A DNA stretch of 42,756 bases. Origin: a virus. The stretch covers positions 1 through 42,756 of IMG/VR virus record IMGVR_UViG_3300023176_002717. One strand, written 5' to 3'. The notes beneath the pieces were generated by a model that was given only the letters and a program-made list of their open reading frames with translations, was not told the origin of the DNA and ran no database searches. Positions 4,168-27,409 of this stretch are shown here, one piece after another. Position 1 is the stretch's first letter; each line of letters opens with the position of its first letter. The position numbers were made by a program, and so were the translations under genes.

Positions 4168-5088
4168 CTATTTGTCTACACCAAAGAACTTCTTACGCTG
4201 GGCTTTTACTTTGTCTTCGAAGTTCGGGTCTGTTGGTTTTCCATTGGAGTCAACCAATACGCTTACCTGGGTACAAAGGCACGCAATCGCGTTCCCACCC
4301 TCCTGATACCACTCCTCAGTCTCTTTTCGCGTGTATATCCCGCCGTGACGCTGTGCGTGTGTTTTGCGGGTTCTATCAGGTATTAGCGCGGATATGTGCA
4401 TAAGACCTGTTCTTACACCGATCTGGTTAGCTTGGAAGTTCTCATCCCATAGCGCCCGGCGGTGCGCACCAGTTATCTCAGTTCGTGCTATTCGTTTAGC
4501 TCTGGCCAGATTACCCTTAGTTCCCTTCTTCTTGTCGCCAAACAATGACTTGTTAATACGCGAGGCTATCCGGTTTGGGTTTTCACCGTTGGACATACCA
4601 TCGGTAAGGATTCTTCCTAGGCTGGCTTTCATATCGCCAGTGAGGCCCTTAAAATCCTCGAATGCCCGGGTTCCGATATAGATCAGCCTGTCCTCAAATG
4701 GAGTGGTTAGGCGTATGCCATCGTATGACCTTGGGTATGATCCCTCGGTTATAATCTCCATATCCCGAATGGCATCAGCCGTTGAGTTCTCATAAGCCTG
4801 TATGGAGGCATCAGAAAGCAGGTGTGTTCGCTCATTACCATCAAGCAGGATGTCATCGATGAGGTCTTGAATATAGGCGTCAATATCGTTGATCAGCGCT
4901 GCGTCTAACTGATACTGGTAGAAGTTCTGGTTTACCTGCATCACCTCAAACTGCAAGCCATCGATATACGTGCGCATCCCATTCAGAACGCGCTTAAATC
5001 GATTCTCAAGCTGCTTGAATACCCTTGCCTCAATAGCATGAGTTCCAGTTTTGTTGACCTTGGCAGTTGGCAATGGAGGGTTAGGCAT
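4168..5088 (-). CDS. Minor head protein, Mu F-like
   Basis: A 306-residue head morphogenesis protein. The C-terminal region has the Mu F signature: ARTEITGAHRRA (about 200-211), the HAQRHGG segment and the paired Cys/His region IACLCTQ. Such proteins sit at the portal vertex and are injected or help capsid assembly. It starts at the exact end of the portal gene (1-base overlap of stop and start), as in many tailed phages. About 50 bases follow before the AT-hook gene, with no visible terminator. Confidence 0.82.
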   Translation of the reverse strand: MPNPPLPTAKVNKTGTHAIEARVFKQLENRFKRVLNGMRTYIDGLQFEVMQVNQNFYQYQLDAALINDIDAYIQDLIDDILLDGNERTHLLSDASIQAYENSTADAIRDMEIITEGSYPRSYDGIRLTTPFEDRLIYIGTRAFEDFKGLTGDMKASLGRILTDGMSNGENPNRIASRINKSLFGDKKKGTKGNLARAKRIARTEITGAHRRALWDENFQANQIGVRTGLMHISALIPDRTRKTHAQRHGGIYTRKETEEWYQEGGNAIACLCTQVSVLVDSNGKPTDPNFEDKVKAQRKKFFGVDK

Positions 5089-6581: not shown

Positions 6582-8183
6582 TTACCTGCGTCTAGATGGT
6601 ATTAACAGTGCTGGTGCGCTGCCAGACTTCAACAATCCAATGTCAACAGCATCCATTGTGTTATCCACCATATCATCATGGTCGTGCGAGTCATCAACCG
6701 TGAACTGACTATGCTCTGCCACGAACTCAACAACCCACTTCTCATTATTTGGTATGCAGACCTTGCCAGCTTTAATTTGTGGTGCAGTATCGTATGCCCG
6801 GGTAGTCTTATCAATGTTGCGCTGGATTGGAGTGATATTAACCGGAAGCTCAGAGGTTAAGTCCTGTATTAGCCCTGTTCCTGATGATTTGTCCTCAACA
6901 TGAATGCTTCTCAAGTTTCCTTGCACAAGATCATTCTTAGCAAAAGACGCCTCAACAAACGCCTTGAATTCAGCTCGAAGCTCCGGAGCATCGAACTTAC
7001 CTCGCTTCATGTCAATCAGGTATATCTTACCCTCATGCACACCCCACTCACAGAACACACTGAAATCATTGTGTTGGCCTTTCTTCTGGGCAGTATCGGC
7101 TGTTATGAATCGATATTCCCAGAATGACGGCTTAGGTATATCTGCGCCTTCACCATAGTAAACCCACCAGTCAGGGTCGAACATCTGGCCACCCAGGGCT
7201 ATTGGCTTCTGCATGTACTGAGACATGAATGTGTATTCATTTTGCTCCCACAGATCCATTAACTGCCCGATATCCTCGTTCTCCGGCCAGAACGAGTAAT
7301 ACCCTCTCACGCACTCAGAATTCTTTACGGCATTCCAGCAATTTGTCTTGTGTGGCTCTGGTAGGTTCTCTATGTACTCTTCTGTTATCAGGGCAGGAAT
7401 TACCACTTGATCGAAGTCAAGACCCATTCCCCCACTCATCATGAACCCGGTAGCATCAAGTTGATGTAATCTCTGTTGAATGCTAATGATTGGCGTGGGG
7501 TGCGCTTTTGACTTATCACCGCGACGTGATCGAACCGTGTCAACAAGCATCCTGTTGTACTTATCACGTTTAACTGCCGAGAACATATCCTCGGGCTTCG
7601 AAAAGTCATCCAGCATCAATGCGCCGGAGTATTCAGGCCCAGGGTAACCTCCACGACCGCCGGTTATCTGACCGCCAGCCGAACGACTAACCATTTCGAA
7701 CAAAACCTTATTAGTATCGCTAACAAGCTGCCATTCTTCAGCCTGATCTGCACCAAACGAAGAAGGCCAAAGCTCTTGCCACTCGCCAGATTTGATCATT
7801 TCCCGAACTCGGCGAGAGTTTCGTTTTACCAGTGAGTCGGCATAAGAAAGTGACAAGTAACGCTGTCTTTGTGATGGCGCTATATTTTGTATTGAAGACC
7901 ATGGAGGAAAGAATATAGACCATGTTTCTGTTTTGGTTGAGCCTGGCGGTACATTGAGTATGGTATTCCCTCGCTTGCGTGACACTACGTCTTCCGCAAT
8001 GCTTGCTACCATTTTATGATGCCAGTTAGTGATAAACCTTTGACCCTGTGTAATCTGGAACCATATTTGCTGAAATCTAAGAAAAGACCGTTCAGATATC
8101 AACCTTACGGCCTGCTTTTGGCCGTCACTCATTTCATCCCAATCAAGCATTAAATTTAATTCCGTGATTCTCATGAAATCCAT
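6582..8183 (-). CDS. Large terminase subunit
   Basis: A 533-residue packaging motor. ATPase part: Walker A VPPGSTKTE (78-86) and Walker B ALMLDDF (Asp192/Asp193). Nuclease part: Asp363 in FITADTA, Glu430 in HVEDKSSGTG and Asp503/504/507 in DHDDMVDNTMDAV, the RNase H-like metal ligands. The C-terminal half matches the psiM2-ORF9/TIGR01630 type of terminase. The annotated start overlaps the HNH gene by 41 bases. A later ATG at 8150 (protein start MLDWDEM), preceded by GGA nine bases upstream, may be the true one. No intein is visible. Confidence 0.9.
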   Translation of the reverse strand: MDFMRITELNLMLDWDEMSDGQKQAVRLISERSFLRFQQIWFQITQGQRFITNWHHKMVASIAEDVVSRKRGNTILNVPPGSTKTETWSIFFPPWSSIQNIAPSQRQRYLSLSYADSLVKRNSRRVREMIKSGEWQELWPSSFGADQAEEWQLVSDTNKVLFEMVSRSAGGQITGGRGGYPGPEYSGALMLDDFSKPEDMFSAVKRDKYNRMLVDTVRSRRGDKSKAHPTPIISIQQRLHQLDATGFMMSGGMGLDFDQVVIPALITEEYIENLPEPHKTNCWNAVKNSECVRGYYSFWPENEDIGQLMDLWEQNEYTFMSQYMQKPIALGGQMFDPDWWVYYGEGADIPKPSFWEYRFITADTAQKKGQHNDFSVFCEWGVHEGKIYLIDMKRGKFDAPELRAEFKAFVEASFAKNDLVQGNLRSIHVEDKSSGTGLIQDLTSELPVNITPIQRNIDKTTRAYDTAPQIKAGKVCIPNNEKWVVEFVAEHSQFTVDDSHDHDDMVDNTMDAVDIGLLKSGSAPALLIPSRRR

Positions 8184-8631
8184 ATTTTAAATTTGCGGAT
8201 TTCCTGGCATCTATCGCATCGGACAGTTCAGAGAACCTGCCAATATTTATTTGCTTGTACTTTACCTTTATTGTAGCTCGCCACTTATTATTTACTTTGT
8301 CCCAGCTAACTCCAGTAAACCCAGAAACATTGCTTGGCTTTGGCCTCTGGTTTCTTGAGTTTTCAATCTTATTTACAACCCTTAAATTCTCAATTCTATT
8401 GTCAGATCTGTTTCCATTTATGTGATCAATGGATTTCCCAGAAACACTAAATCCAGAATAGATTGCAACCATTCTATGATGAAGTTGCATTTTTCCACCT
8501 ATTGATATCATTCTATACCCAGATTTAGCCATTGTTCCTGCATAACGACCTGTTGACCTTTCAACAAGCGCACCATAAAAGGCGTCGTATATAAATCTTT
8601 CTTGCAGGTATGATTGTGTAATTTCGATCAT
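8143..8631 (-). CDS. HNH homing endonuclease with AP2-like DNA-binding domain
   Basis: A 162-residue free-standing endonuclease. The HNH core is LHHRMVAIYSGF followed by SIDHINGNRSDNRIENL, and the C-terminal half (SGFTGVSWDKVNNKWRA...) is an AP2-type DNA-binding domain. The ATG at 8631 with GAGAGA upstream is chosen; the frame stays open further up only through a TTG at 8682. It sits between the terminase subunits and overlaps the large-terminase start, a common insertion place for homing endonucleases. Enzymes of this sort cleave the allele lacking the insertion and spread by repair. A packaging role, as for HK97 gp74, is less likely given the AP2 domain. Confidence 0.85.
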   Translation of the reverse strand: MIEITQSYLQERFIYDAFYGALVERSTGRYAGTMAKSGYRMISIGGKMQLHHRMVAIYSGFSVSGKSIDHINGNRSDNRIENLRVVNKIENSRNQRPKPSNVSGFTGVSWDKVNNKWRATIKVKYKQINIGRFSELSDAIDARKSANLKYGFHENHGIKFNA

Positions 8632-8721
8632 GATTGGTCTCTCATGCTGTGGTCGTATTTGATTGCGGAAAGCAACGACCAATTGCCTTTCAGGAGCTAC
8701 CCTATCCGCTATAAAATTATA

Positions 8722-10697: not shown

Positions 10698-11192
10698 TTA
10701 AAACGGAATATCATCACCTTGCGGGGACTGATTTTGCGGCGCGGACTGGTGAACTCCCATTGGCTGATTCTGCGGCGGTGGCGGCGGCTGATTAGGATTA
10801 AACCCCGGCTGTTGAGGCTGGAACCCTGCCTGTTGTTGCTGTGGTTGATATTGCGCCTGCTGTGGCTGTGCATTCTGTGGAGAATGAATAGCGCCTAACC
10901 ATGCCTCCTGTAGTTCGATCGAATAGACAGGCCCGTTTTGACCGTCGAATATTTCGATCTTCTGAGTTTTTCCGCCAACCTCAACAACAGCACCTTCCAC
11001 CAGTGCGGAGCGATAAAAATCAATCTGCGCCTGATTGCGAACAAAAACAGCGGCGCTATAGTTTGTCCACTCCTTCTGCTTTGTTTTGTGGTCGTAGTAC
11101 TGGACACCGCCACGGATGCCAAACCCTACGGATTCACCAGCTTGAAACTCACTTGCGGCCTTATTTAGTTTTAATACAACTGTAGTTGCCAT
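10698..11192 (-). CDS. ssb: Single-stranded DNA-binding protein
   Basis: A 164-residue SSB. Residues 1-105 form the OB-fold domain, followed by a Gln-, Pro- and Asn-rich flexible linker and the acidic tip DDIPF, which in bacterial SSBs recruits repair and replication partners. The OB part is divergent from E. coli SSB. It lies 12 bases after the Rad52-type gene, forming a single-strand-annealing recombination pair. The tail implies interaction with host proteins that bind SSB. Confidence 0.82.
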   Translation of the reverse strand: MATTVVLKLNKAASEFQAGESVGFGIRGGVQYYDHKTKQKEWTNYSAAVFVRNQAQIDFYRSALVEGAVVEVGGKTQKIEIFDGQNGPVYSIELQEAWLGAIHSPQNAQPQQAQYQPQQQQAGFQPQQPGFNPNQPPPPPQNQPMGVHQSAPQNQSPQGDDIPF

Positions 11193-23486: not shown

Positions 23487-23514
23487 TTAACATAAGTGAT
23501 TATAATCCTATAAT
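23487..23514 (+). promoter_or_regulatory. Promoter with overlapping palindromes
   Basis: TTAACA (23487-23492), 16 bases, TATAAT (23509-23514). A TTGACA at 23481-23486 is also present but is 14 bases from the upstream TATAAT. Two palindromes overlap it: GATTATAATC (23498-23507, perfect) and CCTAT-A-ATAGG (23507-23517). The word TATAATCCTA (23501-23510) is identical to one in the control region at 12510-12519. Confidence 0.65.
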
Positions 23515-23780: not shown

Positions 23781-23814
23781 CAAGCAATGCGCATGATATT
23801 CTAATAACCACCCT

Positions 23815-23837
23815 CCCGCCGGGTTAAGGCGGGGTTT
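23815..23837 (+). terminator. Terminator after the lipoprotein gene
   Basis: CCCGCC (23815-23820) and GGCGGG (23828-23833) form a 6-bp GC stem with a 7-base loop, followed by GTTT. Weak T-run; partial readthrough into the tRNA is plausible. Confidence 0.6.
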
Positions 23838-23840
23838 ATA

Positions 23841-23916
23841 GCCCGCGTAGCATAATGGATAATGCAGTAGCCTTCTAAGCTATTGATTGCAGGTTCGAGT
23901 CCTGCCGCGGGTGCCA
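23841..23916 (+). tRNA. tRNA-Arg (anticodon UCU)
   Basis: A complete cloverleaf. Acceptor GCCCGCG/CGCGGGT (one G-U), D arm GCAT/ATGC, anticodon arm GTAGC/GCTAT with loop CTTCTAA giving anticodon TCT, T arm GCAGG/CCTGC with TTCGAGT loop, then discriminator G and an encoded CCA at 23914-23916. It decodes AGA, a codon rare in many gammaproteobacteria but frequent in AT-rich phage genes. It could also serve as an integration site copy, though no integrase is seen. Confidence 0.93.
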
Positions 23917-23920
23917 AGTT

Positions 23921-24035
23921 TCATATCAAAGGGTCGTGCGCCCTAGACCTAAGTAGGGATTGCACCGGAATAACACACCTCACTGGTGTGCCGCAGATAG
24001 CCGCTGCAGAGGTGACTCTGGGCCTTTTGATATGA
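23921..24035 (+). ncRNA. Structured RNA of unknown class, 115 bases
   Basis: A non-coding stretch starting 4 bases after the tRNA and enclosed by a long stem: TCATATCAAA (23921-23930) pairs perfectly with TTTGATATGA (24026-24035), extended by GG/CC. Inside are a compound hairpin GTGC/GCAC (23936-39, 23962-65) capped by CCCTA/TAGGG (23941-45, 23954-58), a hairpin CGG+CACACC/GGTGTG+CCG (23966-23993) with an AATAA bulge, and CAGAG/CTCTG (24007-11, 24016-20) with a GTGA (GNRA) loop. GGTC (23932-35) could pair with GACC in the first loop as a pseudoknot. No T-run follows. I match it to no known RNA class. Confidence 0.7.
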
Positions 24036-24094
24036 GCCTTGTCTCATACTGAGTAAACAGTAAATCAAAATTTAGAATCAATAAGGAGATAGAC

Positions 24095-24496
24095 ATGTAC
24101 TACTGGGATAAAAAAATTAAAATGGAAGACTTGGTTGGCAAAACAATCAAGGAGATCAAAGGACTAGAGAAGGGTTCTGAAGAGGTTCGCATCTTTACTG
24201 AGTGCGGACAAGAGTATTTGTTTTTTCACCCACAGGATTGCTGTGAGTCGGTTGACCTTAATGATTATGATGGTTATGCAGATGATCTAGTTGGCGCTCT
24301 TATTGTTAGCGCAGAAGAAAGTTCAAATTCAGACGAAGGGGAGAGGCCATGCGAGTATAGCGAAAGCTGGACATGGACATTCTATAAGATAGAAACCAAT
24401 AAGGGCGGGATTTGGATGAGGTGGCTCGGAGAATCTAATGGGTATTACTCCGAAAGCGTTGATCTTGTGTGGGTCAATAAGCCAGATTCCGAATGA
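24095..24496 (+). CDS. DUF7448-like protein
   Basis: A 133-residue acidic protein with the run LVGKTIKEIKGLEKGSEEVR, HPQDCCESV (with the CC pair), SAEESSNSDE, YTWTFYKI-like WTWTFYKIET and GESNGYYSESVDL. These match a family of phage and bacterial proteins of unknown function that I recall as DUF7448. The 51 bases between the structured RNA and this gene's Shine-Dalgarno hold nothing else obvious. AAGGAG is upstream. Confidence 0.72.
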   Translation: MYYWDKKIKMEDLVGKTIKEIKGLEKGSEEVRIFTECGQEYLFFHPQDCCESVDLNDYDGYADDLVGALIVSAEESSNSDEGERPCEYSESWTWTFYKIETNKGGIWMRWLGESNGYYSESVDLVWVNKPDSE

Positions 24497-26284: not shown

Positions 26285-26980
26285 TTACGGCCTATGCGGC
26301 TGTCCTGTTCTAAATCCTAGCCTGTAAGTTCTCAGCTCATCATTTCCAGTATCAATAAATGATATGTCTGTTGAGCTTAAAGACGATATAGATGGAGAGG
26401 TGACTCCAGTTATTGATAAAGTTAGCCCAGCCTGGCTCCAATCCGTGCCACTCCATGAGTATGCTCTTAAGTCACCACCCAATCCAGTTCCATCTACAAA
26501 AGCAATTGATGATGAGTTTAAAGCAGATAATGAAATAGATGATATACTGGGAAGGGTTAATTTATTGCCAACCTGAGACCATGAAGATCCGTTCCAAGAG
26601 TATGTTGTTAGTTCAAGAGTTCCTGATCCAGCAAATGCAATTTCTGTATCGCTAAATGCTGTAGATTTTGGATCACCTGAGAATGTTACGGACAACCCGC
26701 TTCCGACCTGAGACCAATCAGTTCCATTCCATGAATATGTCCTTAGCTCTGTATTGGTACTATCAATGAACGATATTGTTGACGATGTAAGTGCGCTTAT
26801 TGAGGCAACTCCAGCTCCAGATATTGAAAGGCTATTACCAACCTGAGACCATGAAGATCCGTTCCATGAGTATGTCCTAAGCTGATCGCTTGATGATTCA
26901 AAAAATGCAATAAGTGTTTCACTTAATGCGGTTATTGTTGGCGTACCGCTGACTGGTATTGATAGTGAAGAACCAGTCTT
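26285..26980. repeat. 135-bp direct repeats in the fibre gene
   Basis: The repeated protein unit corresponds to DNA units of about 135 bp. For example, CCAACCTGAGACC plus the next 16 bases are identical at 26568-26596 and 26838-26866, exactly two units (270 bp) apart. Such tandem identity allows slippage or recombination. Confidence 0.7.
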
Positions 26981-27409
26981 TGACCAGGCAGATCCGCTCC
27001 ATGAATAGGTTGTCAATTCGTCATTTGTCGAATCAATAAATGCTATAGTATTCGAGTTTAGAGAGGTCGATGCTGGAAGCGTGATGGATGATACTGACAA
27101 GCCTGTACCAATCTGATTTATCTGATCAAGATATGCGGCCATTTGAGAAATCAAAGCTACAGAATCACCTGGGGGTACATTGATTGAGTTTGCGCTATCT
27201 TCTGCCTCTTGTGCACTGGTTGCTGCTGCTTGAGCTTGTGCCGTTGCCTGAGAAACAATTTGAGTATAAGGGATTGCTGTTTTGCTAGGGCCACCATCTA
27301 CCGGGCGCAAAGTGACGTTACTGTCACCATTAAGCGCACGATCAAAGTCAGCAACATTTCTCTGGAAAGCGTCTATGGCATTTGTGCCTAATGGGCCATC
27401 GATAGCCAT
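26285..27409 (-). CDS. Repeat-built tail fibre
   Basis: A 374-residue protein. Residues 1-95 are a probable attachment and coiled-coil region (QATAQAQAAATSAQEAEDSA). From about 104 there are five full units of about 45 residues of the pattern IAFIDSTN.ELRTYSWNGSSWSQVGN.LSI, and a sixth cut short by the stop after ELRTY, leaving the unrelated tail RLGFRTGQPHRP. This is a propeller- or fibre-like host-recognition module. It lies next to the J-like protein, with GAGGA upstream of the start. DNA of the units is similar enough for unit number to change by recombination. Confidence 0.72.
   Translation of the reverse strand: MAIDGPLGTNAIDAFQRNVADFDRALNGDSNVTLRPVDGGPSKTAIPYTQIVSQATAQAQAAATSAQEAEDSANSINVPPGDSVALISQMAAYLDQINQIGTGLSVSSITLPASTSLNSNTIAFIDSTNDELTTYSWSGSAWSKTGSSLSIPVSGTPTITALSETLIAFFESSSDQLRTYSWNGSSWSQVGNSLSISGAGVASISALTSSTISFIDSTNTELRTYSWNGTDWSQVGSGLSVTFSGDPKSTAFSDTEIAFAGSGTLELTTYSWNGSSWSQVGNKLTLPSISSISLSALNSSSIAFVDGTGLGGDLRAYSWSGTDWSQAGLTLSITGVTSPSISSLSSTDISFIDTGNDELRTYRLGFRTGQPHRP

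Follow-up and report, generated by a model that had tools for sequence, protein, structure and literature searches.

A 115-nt intergenic element in a tailed phage, lying directly behind a tRNA-Arg gene, folds on the + strand into a single closed unit and is best explained as a structured noncoding RNA gene that is co-transcribed with tRNA-Arg(UCU), freed by tRNA 3' processing and active in trans, a reading to which we give a probability of about one half. What the present analysis shows is the fold with its strand bias, the location of the element and its absence from known RNA families. The element is a good candidate for a new viral RNA.

The element and its surroundings

The window, that is the whole stretch of 42,756 bases that was analysed, carries TerL, portal, DnaB helicase, Rha antirepressor and NinG genes together with tail genes, several of which were named by eye. 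It is nearly complete. A contig (L008) joins window positions 1 and 42756 through ~3.3 kb that is absent from the window and contains head-gene-like ORFs, and from this closure the whole phage genome is estimated at about 46 kb. Elsewhere in the window a 374-aa protein (26285-27409, - strand) is built of repeat units of the type 'IAFIDSTNDELRTYSWNGSSWSQVG' and is perhaps receptor-binding or tail-associated, and an ORF at 8143-8682 (- strand), just 5' of TerL and on the same strand, resembles an HNH homing endonuclease by eye.

The element occupies the intergenic space between an upstream gene and a DUF7448 gene (Table 1). The spacer between the CCA of the tRNA-Arg gene and the element is only 4 nt (AGTT), and the DUF7448 gene, which has its own Shine-Dalgarno sequence (AAGGAGA), starts ~60 nt 3' of the element in the same direction. 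The promoter-like site that precedes the lipoprotein ORF is a putative transcript start for that ORF, the tRNA and the RNA, but sites of this type are no more numerous in the region than expected by chance. No promoter or terminator belonging to the element itself was found. The G+C-rich hairpin before the tRNA gene is without a real T-run and was not picked by terminator scoring. In a separate viral contig (L004, ~4600-5000), integron attC-like core sites (GTTAGGC / AACGCCTAACC) were seen by eye on either side of the gene preceding a DUF7448 gene, and DUF7448 may thus also be carried in integron cassettes.

Table 1. Features of the tRNA-Arg interval of the window and of the corresponding interval in three related phages
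Feature	Position	Strand	Details
Promoter-like site TTAACA-16-TATAAT	23487-23514	+	11/12 consensus match; 5' of lipoprotein ORF, tRNA and RNA
Putative lipoprotein ORF (LSVTGC), 79 aa	23541-23780	+	directly 5' of tRNA, behind promoter-like site
G+C-rich hairpin UCCCGCC/GGCGGGG	23814-23834	+	305-nt fold; 6 nt before tRNA
tRNA-Arg, anticodon UCU, CCA encoded	23841-23916	+	ARAGORN; Rfam tRNA 70.1 bits
P0 5' strand CAAG	23915-23918	+	would pair with 24038-24041 and overlap tRNA CCA end; fold with flanks
P1 5' strand UCAUAUCAAAGGGUC	23921-23935	+	15 bp with 24021-24035
P2 two-tier hairpin, AU bulge, loop GACCUAAG	23936-23965	+	predicted fold
P3 hairpin, loop UCACU, AAUAA bulge 23969-23973	23966-23993	+	predicted fold
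P4 short hairpin, 3 bp, loop AUAGCCG	23994-24006	+	uncertain, p ~0.57
P5 hairpin CAGAG-GUGA-CUCUG, GNRA loop 24012-24015	24007-24020	+	p 0.67-0.86
P1 3' strand GGCCUUUUGAUAUGA	24021-24035	+	predicted fold, pair probabilities
P0 3' strand CUUG	24038-24041	+	inverted repeat; fold with flanks
DUF7448 gene	24095-24496	+	Pfam PF24240, E 1.2e-25
Stem-cassette RNAs	L018:13837-13964; L019:12863-12959; L020:3933-4059		about 100-130 nt

The predicted fold has a minimum free energy (MFE) of -51.4 kcal/mol and consists of a 15-bp outer stem and four hairpins that meet in a junction without unpaired bases. None of 200 shuffled sequences (mean -33.3 kcal/mol) reached this value (z -4.64). In an independent test with 5,000 dinucleotide shuffles none was as stable as the element (z -5.1), a closed outer stem of at least 10 bp was formed by none, and just 10 were as fully paired. 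The minus strand folds less well (z -2.9 as against -4.6) because three of the pairs are G-U on the + strand, and the tRNA and the operon lie on the strand with the stronger fold. When the interval was folded as a whole (305 nt) the tRNA cloverleaf and the element formed independently side by side, and the predicted fold of the element was unchanged from 20 to 45 C. With its flanks included the fold reaches -57.4 kcal/mol and gains the 4 bp of P0 (CAAG/CUUG), separated from P1 by a 2x2 internal loop. P1, P2 and the distal part of P3 are firm, with pair probabilities mostly above 0.95 (0.98-1.00 in P1 apart from a terminal pair at 0.66; at least 0.95 in the distal 6 bp of P3). The base of P3 (3 bp, 0.47-0.63), P4 and P5 are less certain at about 0.5-0.86 overall, so that half of the junction is predicted only moderately.

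A first-pass annotation of the sequence had placed a 115-base element without a reading frame of note four bases past the tRNA CCA, and these coordinates and the lack of a frame were borne out, as were a two-tier hairpin, an AAUAA bulge and a GUGA-capped (GNRA) hairpin. The perfect outer stem that it described is also present, although its length had been put at 10 bp and is really 15 bp, the helix continuing through G-U and G-C pairs. A GGTC/GACC pseudoknot proposed at the same time is unlikely in the predicted fold: the complementarity is real, but GGUC forms the inner strand of P1 and pairing would compete with the outer stem. The duplex would yield ~3.8 kcal/mol against the 9.1 kcal/mol needed to open both strands, and the pseudoknot was rejected as disfavoured by ~5 kcal/mol net. 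Loops L3 and L5 share a UCAC/GUGA complementarity, to which no weight was given, since by a simple count some 4-nt loop complementarity is expected in about one case in five.

Among the inverted repeats of the 42.8-kb window with arms within 160 nt, the longest is the one formed by the outer arms (23915-23933 / 24023-24041). Phage tRNA genes can serve as attachment sites. Terminal inverted repeats of 15 bp beside such a gene could belong to an element that acts as DNA, such as a MITE, an integron attC, a retron ncRNA or a recombination site. We regard this as the most improbable of the readings considered: the element is present as a single copy in the genome, no flanking target duplication was seen by eye, neither a reverse transcriptase (PF00078), adjacent to the element as a retron ncRNA would have it or elsewhere, nor any tyrosine integrase family was found in the window record, and the G-U pairs favour the RNA strand.

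Known RNA classes and the search for relatives

In a scan of the window with Rfam 15 at gathering thresholds the tRNA was the sole match, and at E values up to 10 nothing credible was found on the + strand over the element, in agreement with the earlier failure to place it in a class. The scan gave no match of the element to known self-cleaving ribozyme families or to the GOLLD and ROOL covariance models. Nothing observed speaks for the ribozyme that the first-pass annotation had suggested, although one of a new family would escape such a scan. ARAGORN and Rfam together report only the tRNA-Arg gene in this region; a tRNA would show a T-arm (GGTTCGANTCC) and a 7-bp acceptor, and the loop of P5 is the 4-nt GUGA. 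No intrinsic terminator (a G+C hairpin followed by a T-run) was found between 23300 and 24600, which upholds the first-pass annotation's view that an element without a T-run is not a terminator.

BLAST searches of the element against phage, plasmid and E. coli records gave short chance matches or none, and four degenerate loop-pattern scans of IMG/VR returned the same phage and chance matches without the fold. The one other copy found is on an IMG/VR contig that belongs to the same phage and agrees with the window at every base for 10.4 kb about the element. No collection searched held a divergent homologue, and identical copies offer no substitutions from which base-pair covariation could be read. 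A single-sequence covariance model of the element (R1) was run against three slightly overlapping samples of proteobacterial genomes (369, 392 and 399; more than 1,100 in all) and gave no credible match; the single match obtained, at E 0.002 per genome, fell within the coding sequence of a gene in a G+C-rich genome and was put down to chance. Because the host of the phage may lie outside these samples, the absence is weak evidence. Relatives found through TerL, DnaB and NinB synteny are without the element, and R1 found no comparable RNA in three phages with related tRNA-Arg genes. The suggestion that the RNA is encoded only in phages agrees with these searches insofar as the element was seen in this phage only. 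Finding none in so large an amount of sequence is also what one would expect of a locally evolved, non-conserved element. The element is real, statistically strong, unclassified and without found homologues, and is to be taken as a new sequence of an ordinary kind until expression or covariation is seen.

Lying 5' of the DUF7448 gene and in its orientation, the element would suit the part of a leader regulator of that gene, whether a riboswitch, as had been entertained earlier, or a protein-binding operator. Four viral contigs carry relatives of the DUF7448 gene at 72, 69, 55 and 50% identity and lack the element, so that it is not tied to this gene, and phage MPK9 has no upstream match to it. 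Also against a leader, neither a terminator nor evident Shine-Dalgarno sequestration was found and a tRNA precedes the element, and we consider this explanation very unlikely.

The same interval in related phages

In each of three syntenic relatives (L018, L019 and L020), whose DnaB proteins are 58-65% identical to that of the window, the space that separates the replication/Rha genes from the NinB/NinG region holds an intergenic element with a strong fold (Table 1, stem-cassette RNAs). The closing stem, of ~20 bp, is nearly identical in the three (GUUUAUAGGUGUGRUGRCUG / CAGUCAUYACAACCUAUAARC), with 97% of its 20 pairs formed across the three sequences; three changes are one-sided, pair-keeping and to or from G-U, and two-sided changes number 0. 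The interiors are unrelated to one another. In L018 the interior scores as a tRNA (38 bits), a degenerate one set within the long stem; in L020 it has, by eye, a decayed-looking T-arm, and in L019 it is short. In L018 and L019 the cassette RNA sits 5' of an ORF for the same MAKKKRK-type protein; the ORF that follows it in L020 has the same length, 161 aa. The cassette as a whole belongs to no Rfam family, and a scan of 369 sampled genomes of one class gave no match. A model of the cassette RNA (R2) does not match the window element and the stems share no sequence similarity, so that the resemblance between the two is one of place and build, with no homology implied. With three sequences the pattern is suggestive only.

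Two further observations were made in these phages. A ~75-base intergenic leader just 5' of the cassette stem is almost identical in L018 (13750-13825) and L019 (12780-12855) and is possibly a further RNA or a regulatory element. In L019, an int-alpA RNA (RF02996) match at 10774-10840 scores 33.7 bits, below the gathering score of 35.8, and lies 5' of the phage ORF preceding Rha.

Because different stem-closed RNAs, one of them tRNA-like, occur there in three syntenic phages, the interval between Rha and NinB/NinG appears to hold RNA genes recurrently, which suits the preferred reading of the window element as an RNA gene. We infer that the element is transcribed in one unit with tRNA-Arg(UCU), that processing of the tRNA 3' end releases it, and that the product is stable and acts in trans, by analogy with other tRNA-adjacent phage RNAs, on host or phage RNA or protein. 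The processed RNA, of ~115-125 nt, should persist because the 15-19-bp closing stem would leave almost no single-stranded end. A bolder form of this reading, which we hold to be improbable, makes the interval a site for RNA cassettes in this phage group. A long closing stem would carry exchangeable interiors, tRNA-like in one phage and a linker-free five-way junction in the window phage, and the cassettes would make up a new class of trans-acting stem-closed phage RNAs.

A conserved stem with changing interiors also fits the main rival well, and for this reason our confidence in a noncoding RNA gene is not higher. The element may instead act in cis on the processing or stability of the tRNA-DUF7448 transcript, with an excised RNA that does nothing in its own right. 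The 15+4-bp stem would then serve as a site for a ribonuclease III-type enzyme or as a block to exonucleases, parting the tRNA from the mRNA that follows and shielding the ends so made. The ~19-21 stem positions, including a CAAG/CUUG extension that overlaps the tRNA CCA, are consistent with this, as are the relatives, in which a ~20-bp closing stem is kept and the interior wholly changed as if the stem were what is selected. A simple hairpin would do for such a purpose, yet four more hairpins and a linker-free junction are present, and in sequence the stem of the relatives does not match that of the window. This rival is possible, and we hold it to be rather unlikely.

The tRNA-like interiors of the relatives, which resemble tRNAs at differing stages of decay, and the finding of conservation in none of the collections searched could also point to a strong but functionless fold, arisen by drift or left over from a decayed RNA gene of some other kind, for instance a second tRNA. 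Decay breaks stems, yet all stems of the element are intact and no shuffled sequence matched its stability, nor does it bear a tRNA signature; such an origin is doubtful.

Comparison with known phage RNAs

To our knowledge many folded RNAs lie beside tRNAs in phages and a function is known for almost none of them. The present element is a compact example whose 115 nt put direct structural work and deletions within reach, and the parallel RNAs at the same site in related phages make the operon interval worth surveying as a collecting site for RNA genes. The tRNA cluster of phage T4 encodes stable RNAs ('species 1 and 2', RNA C/D), which are likewise short phage RNAs encoded with tRNAs; T4 is a phage of an unrelated type and the likeness is one of description. 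Close in setting are the stem-cassette RNAs, which share with the element the interval, a size of about 100-130 nt, a long closing stem, a structured interior and an association with tRNA, and differ from it throughout in sequence.

GOLLD and ROOL are phage RNAs that are often found near tRNAs, and like the element they are phage-encoded, tRNA-adjacent and highly structured with no associated protein (PMC12286853). They differ in being several hundred nt long with conserved Rfam cores, whereas the element has 115 nt and no Rfam match. In phage PhiKZ an abundant ncRNA of about 100 nt, encoded between genes, was detected experimentally (PMC8545117), and the element, known from its sequence, may be likened to it in size, intergenic position and phage origin.
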